Source: Bradyrhizobium zhanjiangense
GTDB lineage: Bacteria > Pseudomonadota > Alphaproteobacteria > Rhizobiales > Xanthobacteraceae
Reading direction: 5' to 3'
NCBI RefSeq assembly: GCF_004114935.1
Contig: NZ_CP022221.1
Span: forward strand, 7,833,001 to 7,897,000
DNA: 64,000 nt
Positions within the stretch are counted from its first letter, which is position 1. Each line of letters begins with the position of its first letter. Below, in pieces: positions 5,885-10,964 of this stretch. The notes beneath the pieces were generated by a model. It searched no databases, was not told the DNA's origin, and worked only from the letters and a program-made list of their open reading frames with translations. The position numbers and the translations under genes are program-made.

Positions 5885-6064
5885 ATGAGGAAGTTTGCGC
5901 TGGGGGACGTCGTCAACAGTGACAAGGGCCGCCGCGGCGTCGTTCGCGCCGCCTTCAAGTCGCGGGAAGGCCAGCAGTTCTACGCCGTCGAAAAGGACGG
6001 CGCGATCGACTATCTGGAAGAAGACCGGCTGAGCCCGGCGCCGCGCGTCGAGCTCGCGGCATAA
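5885..6064 (+). CDS. Small conserved-looking hypothetical protein (59 aa)
   Basis: A charged 59-residue protein beginning MRKFALGDVVNSDKGRRG, preceded by a GAGGACGGAAG purine-rich RBS. The sequence looks like a small beta-rich fold: a GDVV start, a GVVRAAFKSREGQQFYAVEKDG strand pattern, and an acidic LEEDRL turn. It resembles small KOW/SH3-like domains, but I do not recognise a named family. It lies divergently from the dioxygenase gene and tail-to-tail with the carboxylesterase. No function is claimed. Confidence 0.7.
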   Translation: MRKFALGDVVNSDKGRRGVVRAAFKSREGQQFYAVEKDGAIDYLEEDRLSPAPRVELAA

Positions 6065-6070
6065 TCCAAC

Positions 6071-7543
6071 TCATTTCCTGCCCTCACCTGCCATCCGATC
6101 GAGACGCTCCGTGAAGGGGTCGTCTCCGCTCGCGATGCGGTCGTCGGTGATCAGCAGTAGGCGATCACGCTCTGCGGCCGCGTCCCAATGGGGCAAACCG
6201 GGACCATTGGGATCGCCGCTTCTTGCAAAGTTGATCCAGTAGCCGCGCATGCGGCTCGCGACCTCGCGATCGCCTCGCGAGAAGATTCCTGCACCGGGCA
6301 CGCCTTCCGCACCGAAAATGAACTGCAACTCGCGTCCGTGCCCACGATCGGGATTTGCGCGCCGCGCCTCGGGCACATAGCCAAAGCGATAGCGAAAGGT
6401 CGGCGCGCCCGTGGCCGCGTGAAGACGGGCCAGCAGTCTGACCGGCTCGGAGAAGACCTTGTCGGTATAGAACCGAGCTTTCAGCTCCGAAGGTTTCAAA
6501 AGGTTGGGATAGAGCTCGCGCAGCCCATCGATCGTGCGGCCCGATGATGCAAGATCGTCTTGGTCGTCGAGTTCATCGCCGAAACCCGTCTCGTCGTCAT
6601 TCGAGCCGATGATGAGGGGAATGCGGCTCTCGTGCCCCGCCGTGAATCCCGCAGCGATGTTCTCCGTCACCAGGCTCCCATCCATGACCGGCACAAAGGC
6701 GCGCGCGAACTTCGCCAGCAGGCGATCTTCGGCAGCCAGCAATCGTGCCGGCGGGACCGCCCGCAAATCCGGCTCGGAAGCGAGGCCAGCGGCGAAATAC
6801 GCGCTCACGACCTCCGCCTCCTGCGGCGAGTGCAGAGCTGCGCGGCCGGGCACCGATTGCAAAATGGCTTTCTGGAATAAACCGCGCGCCTGCCGGCACA
6901 GCATCAGCAGTGCGATCGATGTCGCGCCTGCGCCGTTGCCGAACAGAGTGACGTTGTTTGGATCGCCGCCGAATGCCGCGATATTGTCCTGCACCCAATG
7001 CAGCGCCGCAATCTGGTCCATCAGGCCGTAATTGCCGGAGCCGCCCTCCGACAGCGCCGGGTGAGTGAGCCAGCCGAGCACACCGAGGCGATAATTCACG
7101 GTGACGACGATGAGGCCGGCCTGTGCCAGCCTGGCGCCGTCGAACACCGCATCGTTCGCGGTGCCCGTGACGAAGGCGCCGCCATGGATGAACATCATCA
7201 CCGGCAACGGACCATCGACCCCGAAGGGACGAAACACGTTCAGCGTGAGGCAATCCTCGCGCGCGGCCGGCAGCGACGGTTGAAGGCACGGCGCGCCGTA
7301 GTCGTAGGCGGTGTGCATCTCCGAACTCTCGGCCGTCGGCTGCGGCGGGCGCCAGCGCAGCGCACCGACCGGCGGCGCCGCGTAAGCCAGCCCCTTGAAG
7401 GAGGCCACCTCGCCTTCGACGGCGCCAAGCATCTGTCCTTCACGCGTCAGCGCAAATGGAAACTGTCCGACCGGCTGTGCCACGGCCGAGCCGACGCCAC
7501 ACAGGACAATGGAAGCCGCAACAAGCGCGAGCACGGATCGCAT
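6071..7543 (-). CDS. Type-B carboxylesterase-family protein lacking the catalytic serine
   Basis: A 490-aa exported alpha/beta-hydrolase (signal peptide about 1-22, ending AVAQP). Type-B carboxylesterase marks are present: EDCLTLNVF (97-105), the oxyanion loop HGGAF (120-124), an acidic GSNDDETG near 313-320, and the histidine in RGHGREL (His402). The nucleophile elbow, normally G-E-S-A-G, reads G-N-G-A-G (202-206). The serine is a glycine (codon GGC at 6932-6934), so esterase activity by the usual mechanism is not expected. It is otherwise full length with no frameshift. Possible readings are a binding-only pseudoenzyme (as in neuroligins) or a recently inactivated enzyme. Confidence 0.9.
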   Translation of the reverse strand: MRSVLALVAASIVLCGVGSAVAQPVGQFPFALTREGQMLGAVEGEVASFKGLAYAAPPVGALRWRPPQPTAESSEMHTAYDYGAPCLQPSLPAAREDCLTLNVFRPFGVDGPLPVMMFIHGGAFVTGTANDAVFDGARLAQAGLIVVTVNYRLGVLGWLTHPALSEGGSGNYGLMDQIAALHWVQDNIAAFGGDPNNVTLFGNGAGATSIALLMLCRQARGLFQKAILQSVPGRAALHSPQEAEVVSAYFAAGLASEPDLRAVPPARLLAAEDRLLAKFARAFVPVMDGSLVTENIAAGFTAGHESRIPLIIGSNDDETGFGDELDDQDDLASSGRTIDGLRELYPNLLKPSELKARFYTDKVFSEPVRLLARLHAATGAPTFRYRFGYVPEARRANPDRGHGRELQFIFGAEGVPGAGIFSRGDREVASRMRGYWINFARSGDPNGPGLPHWDAAAERDRLLLITDDRIASGDDPFTERLDRMAGEGRK

Positions 7544-7718
7544 CTTCGGAGTATCTCGATGCGCGGAACGGTTCCAGCAGGTTACGTCCGCGGCCGCCAG
7601 CGAGGCAAGCTAGGTCTTACCTCCCAGCGCGAGCGAAGCTCGTCGCGGCCCCGTAAGCGCGGGGCGAGGGAGCGCACCTTCGATGCGGCCAGACGCTTGG
7701 CTCAATCGCGCCTGCGAC

Positions 7719-7928
7719 CTAACCACTCTTGGCGAGGAGCTCCGCCAGCGCGCGGCGCGCGATGATGCCGAGCTCACCGAGCGTGGAGTGCCCTGACTGT
7801 GCCGCCTCGATCAGGCGCTCGGCGATGAATCTGCGGCTGTCGTGATCGCCGCCATGTGGCAATTGGCGGCACGTCTCCTCCAGGACGACGTCCATGTTCG
7901 CTTTGGTTCGCTCGCTCAACTCTGTCAT
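7719..7928 (-). CDS. Hypothetical protein (69 aa)
   Basis: A short acidic and helical protein starting MTELSERTKANMDVVLEE. The pattern of charged and hydrophobic residues and the high GC3 suggest a real gene. The upstream start at 7967 is possible but would add a poorly structured 13-residue extension. I do not recognise a domain. It lies between the esterase-like gene and the divergently transcribed monooxygenase fusion. Confidence 0.6.
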   Translation of the reverse strand: MTELSERTKANMDVVLEETCRQLPHGGDHDSRRFIAERLIEAAQSGHSTLGELGIIARRALAELLAKSG

Positions 7929-8156
7929 GACGCCCGGTCGGTACGCGTGGCTTGTAAGCGCAAGCATACACAGAAGGATGTGGTCTGATTAGCCCGGACA
8001 ATCCCGGCGATTGTGCATCGCGGTGCGTGTATCGCCATAACCTTCCCGCGGCCACGATGCCGCCGCAAACGACTACCGAAGATTGCACTTGTCCTGATGA
8101 CAAGCCGAACCTGCAGCGATAGCCTGCCGGCAAAACAAATACACGGGAGGAATGCC
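7929..8156. promoter_or_regulatory. Divergent promoter region before the monooxygenase-esterase gene
   Basis: About 228 bp separate the start of the 69-aa gene (leftward) from the fusion gene (rightward). The latter has a strong GGGAGG RBS at 8145-8150. I cannot identify a specific operator. Confidence 0.35.
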
Positions 8157-10844
8157 ATGCCTGACGCAATGGTCGCCGCACGTGAATCCCAAGCGGCGGG
8201 CGGGACAGCCCAGCAGGTCGACGTCGCCGTGGTGGGCGCCGGATTTGCCGGGCTCTATCTCCTGCATCGCCTGCGCAAGGCCGGCTTCAAGGCGATCGCC
8301 CTCGATGAGGCCGGCGACGTCGGCGGCACCTGGTACTGGAACCGCTATCCCGGCGCGCGCTGCGACATCCAGACCATCGATTACAGCTACACCTTCGATC
8401 CGGATCTCGAGACCGCCTGGACCTGGTCGGAGAAATACGCGACCCAGCCCGAAATCCTTCGCTATCTCGGCTTCGTCGCCGATCGCTATGACCTCAGGCG
8501 CGACATCCGCTTCAAGACCAAGGTGACCGAAGCCAAATGGGACGAGGCGACGGAGCGCTGGCAGCTCACGACCGATAACGGCGCGCCGGTCTCCTGCCGC
8601 CACTACATCATGGCCACCGGCTGCCTCTCCGCGCCAAAGCCGCCGGAGATCGACGGCGTCAAGGACTTCAAGGGGGAGATCTATTTCACCGGACGCTGGC
8701 CGCATGACGGCGTCAATCTCGCGGGAAAACGCGTCGCTGTGATCGGCACGGGCTCGTCGGCCATCCAGTCGATCCCGCTGATCGCCGAGCAGGCCGCGCA
8801 TCTGACTGTGTTCCAGCGCACGCCGAATTTCGCGCTGCCTGCACACAATGGTCCGGCGCCAGCAGACCGCATGAGCCTGCTGCAAGGCGATCGCGCGGCC
8901 TATCGCGAGCAGGCGCGCCAGTCGATGGCCGGCGTCCCCTACCCGCAGCAGACCGTCGTGAGCTGGCAATTGAGCGATGCCGAGCGTCGCGAGCGGTTCG
9001 AACGCGCCTGGGCAGCCGGCGACCTCGTCCACATCCTGACGCAGCTCTGGGCCGACCAGGCCGTCGATGTCGACGGCAACAAGATCGTCCAGGACCTGAT
9101 CCGCGAGAAGATCCGCGCCGCCGTCAACGACCCCGAAACCGCTGCGGCGCTGACGCCGCACGATCATCCCTTCGGCGCCAAGCGTCCCTGCCTCGATACC
9201 AACTACTACGCCACCTACAACCGGCCGAACGTCACGCTGGTCAATCTGCGCGAGGAGCCGATCAAGGCGATCACCGCGAGCGGCATCTCCACGAACGGCC
9301 GCAGCTTCGATCTCGACATCATCGTGTTCGCGACCGGTTTCGACGCCATGACCGGCGCGATCCGTGCCGTGTATCCGATCACCGGGCGGGGCGGCAGGTC
9401 GCTCTCCGACGTCTGGGCGCAGGGACCGCAGACCTATCTCGGCCTCACGGTCGAAGGCTTCCCGAACTTCTTCATGATCACCGGCCCCGGCAGCCCGTCG
9501 GTGCTGTCGAACATGGCGGTGTCGATCGAGCAGCATGTCGACTGGGTCGTCGATCGCCTTGCCGCGCTGCGCGATGCCGGTTTCAACACGATCGAGCCGA
9601 CCGAGACGGCGCAGGCCGCATGGGGCCGGCACATGGCCGACTGTTCGATGCTGACGCTGCACCGGCTCGCCAACACCTGGTACACGGGCGCCAACGTGCC
9701 CGGCAAGGTCCAGGGCTTGATGCCCTATACCGGCGGCGTCGGCCCCTATCGCAGCATCTGCGACGAGGTGGTCAGCCGCGGCATGCTCGGCTTCAGGCTC
9801 ACCGGCCCCAACAGCGCCGCGCAATGCAATGACGGCGAAGTGGTGCGCCTGCAGCCGGACGTGCGGCTGGTGCTGAACCTGCTCGTGTCGCTGAACCTGC
9901 CGCCGATCGAGTCGATGGGCGCGCTCGGCGCACGTGCCTTCGTCAACGAGTTCAACAAGGGCCGGCCTGCGGGGCGGCCGATCGGCGACATCGTCGACGG
10001 CACTCTGCCAGTTACCGACGGCGACCTGCCTTACCGCGTCTACAAGCCCGCAACAGCAGGACCGCATCCGATCGTGGTCTATTTCCACGGCGGCGGCTGG
10101 GTGCTCGGTGACGAGCAGTCGGACGAGCCGTTCTGCCGCGACATGGTGCGGCGGACCGGCATGATCTTCGTCAGCGTCGGCTATCGCCATGCGCCGGAGC
10201 ACCGCTTCCCCACCGCGGCCGAGGACGGTTATGCGGCGACGCGCTGGATCGCCGAGCACGCCGCCGAGCTCGGCGGCACGCCGGGCCCGGTGCTGGTCGC
10301 AGGCTGGAGCGCCGGCGGCAACATCGCCGCCGTCACCTGCCAGCTTGCGCGCGACCGCGGCGGGCCTGACATCGCCGGCCAGCTCCTGGTCTGCCCGGTC
10401 ACCGACTGCACCTTCGATCGTCCGTCCTACAACGACAATGCGACCGGCTACTTCCTGACGCGCTCGCTGATGTATTGGTTCTGGGACCTGTACTGCTCGC
10501 CGGCCGACCGCACCGACCCGCGCGTCTCGCCACTCCGCGGCAAGGTCGCCGGCCTGCCGCCGGCCTTTGTCGTCACCTGCGAGTTCGATCCGTTACGCGA
10601 CGAGGGCGCCGCCTATGCCGAGGCGATGGCCGCCGCCGGCGTCCCGGTCGAGCAGCTCCGTGCGCGCGGCCATTTCCACTCGTCCTTTGCGATGGTGGAC
10701 GTGGTGATCACCGGCGTGCCAGGCCGGGCGCAGATGGCCGGGGCTTTGCGGCGCTTCGCGGGGCTGCCGGAGGTCAGCCGCGGCGACGAGGGCAGCAAGG
10801 GCCATGACAGCCCGGAGCACAGAATCGCGGCCGCCGCGAGCTGA
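8157..10844 (+). CDS. Fusion of Baeyer-Villiger-type flavin monooxygenase and HSL-family esterase
   Basis: An 895-aa two-domain enzyme. The N-terminal part (about 20-580) is a class B flavin monooxygenase with an FAD Rossmann motif VVGAGFAG (26-33), [15 protein letters not shown] and an NADPH motif VIGTGSSA (196-202). The C-terminal part (about 620-885) is a hormone-sensitive-lipase-type hydrolase with HGGGW (644-648), nucleophile Ser718 in GWSAGG, Asp811 in [10 protein letters not shown], and His839/841 in GHFHSS. The first half would insert oxygen beside a ketone to give an ester or lactone, and the second would hydrolyse it. In the Baeyer-Villiger fingerprint F-x-G-x3-H-x3-W-P (171-182) the histidine is Phe177. 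The start follows GGGAGG. The substrate is unknown. Confidence 0.92.
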
Positions 10845-10925: not shown

Positions 10926-10964
10926 GACCCCGGCACGCGAACCCGTGTGCTGGGGTCGTTTTTT
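10926..10964 (+). terminator. Rho-independent terminator after the fusion gene
   Basis: An 11-bp stem GACCCCGGCAC / GTGCTGGGGTC (one G-U pair) with a 10-nt loop is followed by GTTTTTT. It lies 82 bp after the monooxygenase-esterase stop. Confidence 0.85.

Follow-up and report, generated by a model that had tools for sequence, protein, structure and literature searches.

The gene at 8157–10844 on the forward strand of the window, as we call the whole 64,000-nucleotide stretch of Bradyrhizobium zhanjiangense DNA that was analysed, is confirmed to encode a flavin monooxygenase and a complete HSL-type esterase as one covalent chain, with a short linker between them. We put a probability of about 0.6 on the reading that this protein is a two-step ketone-cleaving enzyme, in which the PAMO/steroid-monooxygenase-like N-terminal domain would bind FAD and NADPH and insert one oxygen beside the carbonyl of a ketone (Baeyer-Villiger oxidation), and the HSL-type C-terminal esterase would hydrolyse the ester or lactone via Ser718-Asp811-His841 to an acid plus an alcohol or to a hydroxy acid. 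Both catalytic activities and their order we infer; the proposed order, in which a ketone first becomes an ester and the ester is then split into acid and alcohol, is grounded mainly in unfused pairs of neighbouring genes and in the characterised acmA/acmB genes of Gordonia. The interpretation given in an earlier note on this DNA is, as a whole, partly supported: its two-domain reading is right, and the ketone oxidation, the hydrolysis of the matching ester and the retention of that ester that it proposes are putative.

Architecture of the fusion protein

The coding region is a single open frame with a coding-type GC content by codon position (0.67/0.50/0.87) and a GGAGG motif that ends six bases 5′ of the ATG, and it encodes a protein of 895 residues. 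The features are as follows.

8011–8022, unstranded: PhaR-type site TTGTGCATCGCG (reverse complement CGCGATGCACAA), by identity with the published blr6465 site
8146–8150, forward: ribosome-binding site GGAGG, read from the sequence
8157–10844, forward: fusion gene, 895 codons plus stop
8202–9803, forward: PAMO/steroid-monooxygenase-like domain, residues 16–549
8235–8252, forward: first Rossmann motif GAGFAG, residues 27–32
8322–8366, forward: first BVMO fingerprint, residues 56–70, read in translation
8667–8702, forward: second BVMO fingerprint, residues 171–182; codon 8685–8687 encodes Phe177, not His
8745–8762, forward: second Rossmann motif GTGSSA, residues 197–202
9183–9185, forward: Arg343, equivalent of PAMO Arg337
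9804–9836, forward: linker, residues 550–560, pLDDT about 87
9837–10763, forward: HSL-type esterase domain with cap, residues 561–869
10086–10097, forward: oxyanion-hole motif HGGG, residues 644–647
10302–10319, forward: nucleophile elbow GWSAGG, residues 716–721, with Ser718
10587–10589, forward: catalytic Asp811
10677–10679, forward: catalytic His841
10926–10957, forward: terminator-like hairpin with T run (3 in the region vs 1.8 expected; weak alone)

Pfam FMO-like and Pyr_redox matches cover the N-terminal part, and Abhydrolase_3 matches residues 640–842 with an E-value of 3.6e-76. The AlphaFold2 model is confident for both domains (pLDDT 89.7, pTM 0.87). That monooxygenase and esterase share one polypeptide, as the earlier note had claimed, is borne out alike by the open frame, the Pfam matches, the motifs, the domain order of family A (see below) and the model; as all 121 listed family A proteins carry both domains in the same order and the model is confident, the arrangement is neither chance nor an assembly join. 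The same note had placed the monooxygenase at residues 20–580 and the hydrolase at 620–885. Both Rossmann motifs and the complete catalytic set stand, whereas the boundaries shift, from residue 580 to about 549 for the end of the monooxygenase and from 620 to about 561 for the start of the hydrolase, N-terminal cap included. An antisense ORF of 728 residues at 8073–10259 has a codon bias that is the mirror image of that of the fusion gene and is for this reason taken as spurious. None of the 50 matches listed in the VIA list spans both domains.

In terms of family membership, the N-terminal half has the type I BVMO fold, both Rossmann motifs, the first type I BVMO fingerprint, [A/G]GxWxxxx[F/Y]P[G/M]xxxD, at residues 56–70, and, in R343 and D70, the counterparts of the PAMO active-site residues Arg 337 and Asp 66. 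The second fingerprint, FxGxxxHxxxW(P/D), is broken at Phe177, which aligns with PAMO His173 and takes the place of the histidine, a feature absent from the earlier note. As a result of this replacement the monooxygenase half is not fully canonical, and we regard it as probably BVMO-like in its working and do not claim formal type I BVMO membership for it; the excerpted words of one curator permit H/Q or F/Y substitutions in the BVMO fingerprint. The C-terminal half combines the profile match of an HSL-type (Abhydrolase_3) esterase with HGGG, GxSxG, Asp and His and with a fold that includes the N-terminal cap. It comes close to NCBIfam LipP1 (NF058653) and is not a member of it, with 331.2 bits over residues 567–852 against a curated cut-off of 350 bits.

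Fusion families and separate neighbouring genes

A search of protein databases for the same domain order, which the earlier note had suggested, yielded two fusion families with the order of the window protein, A and C, and a third, B, with the order reversed. The lists of families A, B and C rest on the 120 top-scoring hits out of 8000, 8000 and 4892, respectively, and are not random samples; the 121 proteins counted for family A are these 120 plus the window protein. Among the listed proteins, the monooxygenase precedes the esterase in 121/121 of family A and 119/120 of family C, and the esterase precedes the monooxygenase in 121/121 of family B; one listed family C protein has no detectable esterase. 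The catalytic Ser, Asp and His are kept in 121/121 listed proteins of family A and likewise 121/121 of family B, and D70, W181 and R343 are invariant in all 362 listed proteins of the three families. As nucleophile elbow, family A has GWSAG in 121/121, family B has GDSAG in 117/121 and family C mostly has GESAG. Asp is aligned at the catalytic Ser in 5 of the 120 listed family C proteins (among P0122 and P0244–P0362), so the fused esterase may be dead in some members of this family.

Of 117 genomes sampled from the window's genus, 100 match the fusion protein (E ≤ 1e-200), and in 5 of the 100 the match ends between query residues 615 and 784. All family A names shown among the best 120 of 8000 scored hits are Bradyrhizobium. 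One genome of this genus carries two family A fusions (G287:C1:5948807–5951500 and G287:C1:3980108–3982780), which are 84 and 81% identical to that of the window. Beyond the genus, family A includes a member from another alphaproteobacterial family (L058, 77% identity) as well as L206 and L207 (60 and 64% identity), from two genomes in a sample of the class to which a Nocardioides genome belongs; these two group with family A with an SH-aLRT of 99. Named members of family C include Zavarzinia, Nevskia, Panacagrimonas, Rhodococcus, Nocardia, Streptomyces and Xanthomonas hortorum, and those of family B are Henriciella, Hyphomonas, Pyruvatibacter and Parvibaculales. A related-locus search with P0296 returned two loci only.

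The earlier note had also suggested a tree of each domain, and of these the monooxygenase tree gives an answer and the esterase tree decides nothing. In the monooxygenase-domain tree (42 rows), the AU test rejects a single clade for A+C (p 0.005) and for B+C (p 0.003), and a single origin of all three families is rejected as well (AU p 0.003); the esterase-domain tree (41 rows) is poorly resolved (A+C, p 0.21; B weakly joined with C, 81/71) and does not decide the matter. Families A and B as one clade are compatible with both the monooxygenase tree (AU p 0.54) and the esterase tree (p 0.51). As the A+C clade is rejected by the monooxygenase tree, the fusion arose at least two times, and three times if A and B, with their opposite orders, were fused separately.

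Separate genes of the two types also lie side by side. Six of the 111 unfused ORFs of the alphaproteobacterial sample have an esterase gene of this type next to them on the same strand, with the esterase first in four (L094, L095, L130 and L040, whose genes overlap by four bases) and the monooxygenase first in two (L119 and L042). The seven best plasmid records, in which one place covers ≥80% of the query, consist of one fusion (L241) and six separate-gene pairs with the monooxygenase first, the four annotated pairs being separated by 1 to 99 bases. In one of the pairs, on a Marinibacterium plasmid (L237, 3021–8488), the genes lie one base apart after annotated 4-nitrophenol monooxygenase genes, and the unfused monooxygenase has Phe at the fingerprint His position. 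The L241 fusion (6019–8496), on a Bradyrhizobium plasmid, is C-like, with 831 residues and Arg at that position, and it sits near genes for a 4-hydroxyphenylacetate 3-hydroxylase-type enzyme and a muconolactone isomerase. At least two independent fusions, both domain orders, the kept catalytic residues and the separate neighbouring pairs together lend good support to the earlier note's view that the two reactions belong together.

The fingerprint histidine

At the fingerprint position, family A has Phe in 120 and Tyr in 1 of its 121 listed proteins. The histidine is kept in 13 of the 362 listed fusion-family proteins (0/121 in A, 1/121 in B and 12/120 in C), and the residues in its place are mixed, with Q, I, V and T in family B and R, A, F, S and more in family C. 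In the alphaproteobacterial sample, all 118 matches, found in 82 of 385 genomes (E ≤ 1e-140), were examined, and the list drawn up from them has 121 ORFs: 9 fused and 111 unfused ORFs that were scored and one unscored fragment. The histidine is present in 0/9 of the fusions vs 101/111 of the unfused ORFs (Fisher p 9e-9, a value that ignores kinship), or 98/108 of the latter once two extra flank ORFs and one half of a broken gene are set aside. The second sample, 296 genomes of the class to which a Nocardioides genome belongs, has 58 matches, 30 of which were returned as loci and examined; among these 30 loci, His is present in 0/2 fusions vs 27/28 unfused proteins. A kinship-aware pair test cannot become significant with only three fusion clades.

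Loss of the histidine as a strict mark of fusion is rejected, as 10 of the 111 unfused ORFs lack it and 13 of the 362 fusion-family proteins retain it. The His-less unfused proteins L002, L136, L040, L042 and L164 sit near families A and B in a larger tree. The first of these is encoded by another BVMO-like gene, an unfused one, of the genome that carries the window's fusion (G000:C1:6163054–6164634), and the fingerprint His is absent from it too (YAGELLRAGRWP). Separate neighbours mostly keep the residue (4/6 alphaproteobacterial and 5/6 plasmid pairs), so its loss goes with covalent joining and not with the sharing of a pathway.

Excerpts of PMC3762062 describe how mutating the fingerprint His lowered efficiency in CHMO and inactivated HAPMO, and they cite a proposed conformational-change role for the residue. 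Loss of the histidine is nevertheless no proof of a dead enzyme, since BVMOAf1 is active with Gln at this position and with a natural C-terminal domain. The attached esterase might alter the cycling of the monooxygenase by assuming the hinge role proposed for the His, a rather doubtful idea that would explain why the His is given up in fusions of either order and mostly kept in separate neighbours. If true, fused BVMOs would be a mechanistically distinct class, excluded by construction from fingerprint-based surveys. BVMOs were selected by the second-fingerprint motif in PMC4498894 and PMC6058054, according to the excerpted texts, and the fusions would have been missed there because the fingerprint His is absent. 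His-less fusions thus put a widely used definition of the BVMO family to the test.

Gene context, proposed function and known systems

The PhaR-type site upstream of the fusion gene lies 146 bases 5′ of the ATG and is the exact reverse complement of the 12-base site given for blr6465 in the available part of PMC6201568. According to the same text, blr6465 of strain USDA110, a “putative steroid monooxygenase”, has an RPKM of 39.03 vs 14.29 in a phaR mutant, 2.7-fold lower without PhaR. Judging from the identity of the site and from the name, blr6465 is probably the orthologue of the window fusion. The available part of PMC6201568 reports no PhaR binding to the blr6465 promoter and shows no gel shift of it. 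Across 31 upstream regions (26 distinct genes), the site is exact in 17 and has one mismatch in 3; the remaining 11, from seven genes in other contexts, some repeated, have nothing within two mismatches. The site is conserved upstream of the fusion in one genomic context. The window has a single copy, against 0.08 expected, and the genome has three, vs two for the pattern read backwards. In 20 upstream regions it ranks first of 289 positions compared, level with the position one base further left, a rank that is partly due to choice, as these regions were preselected for a site with at most one mismatch. For a model soybean symbiont, the site offers a way into the physiology of the gene.

Twelve family A loci were compared, and in seven of them none of the ten neighbouring window genes adjoins the fusion, which therefore seems to be its own transcription unit; the other five loci (L166, L167, L172, L173 and L177) share glgC, glgA, a LigB-type gene and a carboxylesterase gene. 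The last of these, a divergent gene (PF00135) at 6071–7543 on the reverse strand of the window, lies next to the fusion, is kept in the same number of loci (5/12) and could act on the same esters. In the loci examined from the window's genus, the family A neighbours hold no hint of a substrate or pathway.

As the nearest characterised monooxygenases make acetate esters, a methyl ketone that is converted to an acetate ester and then to an alcohol plus acetate is our tentative guess at the reaction, with the odds somewhat against it. Cyclic or terpenoid ketones, from which the protein would form and then open a lactone, are a slightly less likely choice. A family B locus (L178) adjoins short-chain-dehydrogenase and old-yellow-enzyme genes, a mix familiar from cyclic-ketone breakdown. 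BVMOAf1 makes lactones according to the excerpts of PMC3762062, but the nearest solved enzymes by sequence are steroid monooxygenase and PAMO, ahead of the cyclohexanone enzymes. With the fingerprint His gone, the monooxygenase half might instead oxygenate sulfur or nitrogen or mainly waste NADPH, as Phe177 and the published effects of mutating that His (PMC3762062, excerpts) would allow; this appears improbable, however, as every other checked BVMO residue is kept and BVMOAf1, with Gln there, oxidises a ketone and sulfides (PMC3762062, excerpts).

The two-step ketone-cleaving enzyme is compatible, except for any hand-over between the domains, with co-production without channelling, in which both domains work, the ester diffuses and the fusion only sets the enzyme ratio. 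This falls only a little short of an even prospect, as unfused neighbours come in either order, in some cases with a gap of just 1 to 99 bases, and fusions in both orders do not suggest one fixed docking geometry, whereas the short, confidently modelled linker would hold the domains close. It is very improbable that the esterase half works on unrelated esters and that the fusion is incidental: the catalytic Ser is missing from 5 of the 120 listed family C proteins, but accident would hardly account for the independent fusions and gene pairs.

Steroid monooxygenase (4ap3, 4aos) and PAMO (1w4x, 4d03) are unfused and have the fingerprint His, unlike the window protein with its fusion and Phe177. 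Est8 (4ypv), EST2 (1evq) and rPPE (4ob7) resemble the whole esterase half, including the cap and the catalytic set; they are stand-alone enzymes, whereas the window esterase is fused and has a GWSAG elbow. According to the excerpts of PMC3762062, BVMOAf1 of Aspergillus fumigatus resembles the fusion in size (905 residues), in having a natural domain of some 360 residues at its C-terminus and in the replacement of the His, by Gln, and it is active when truncated; it differs in being fungal and in that its authors describe this domain as a putative polynucleotide synthase and not as an esterase, the likeness being one of description. The acmA/acmB genes of Gordonia TY-5 have the same BVMO-then-esterase order, from acetone to methyl acetate to methanol plus acetate, but encode two separate proteins in a two-gene operon and are likened by reaction order (PMC6215540, excerpts). 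For blr6465 of B. diazoefficiens USDA110, with the same 12-base PhaR-type site and a name common for these fusions, the available part of PMC6201568 mentions no esterase half. The titles and abstract beginnings listed by searches of open-licence papers held no description of a natural BVMO-esterase fusion. The parts are known, and both halves are already named by automatic annotation; what appears to be new is the natural fusion of BVMO and esterase, in both orders, in other bacterial groups as well and with the fingerprint His mostly given up. If their halves act in sequence, these fusions would be natural one-piece catalysts, in both orders, for the conversion of ketones to acid plus alcohol.
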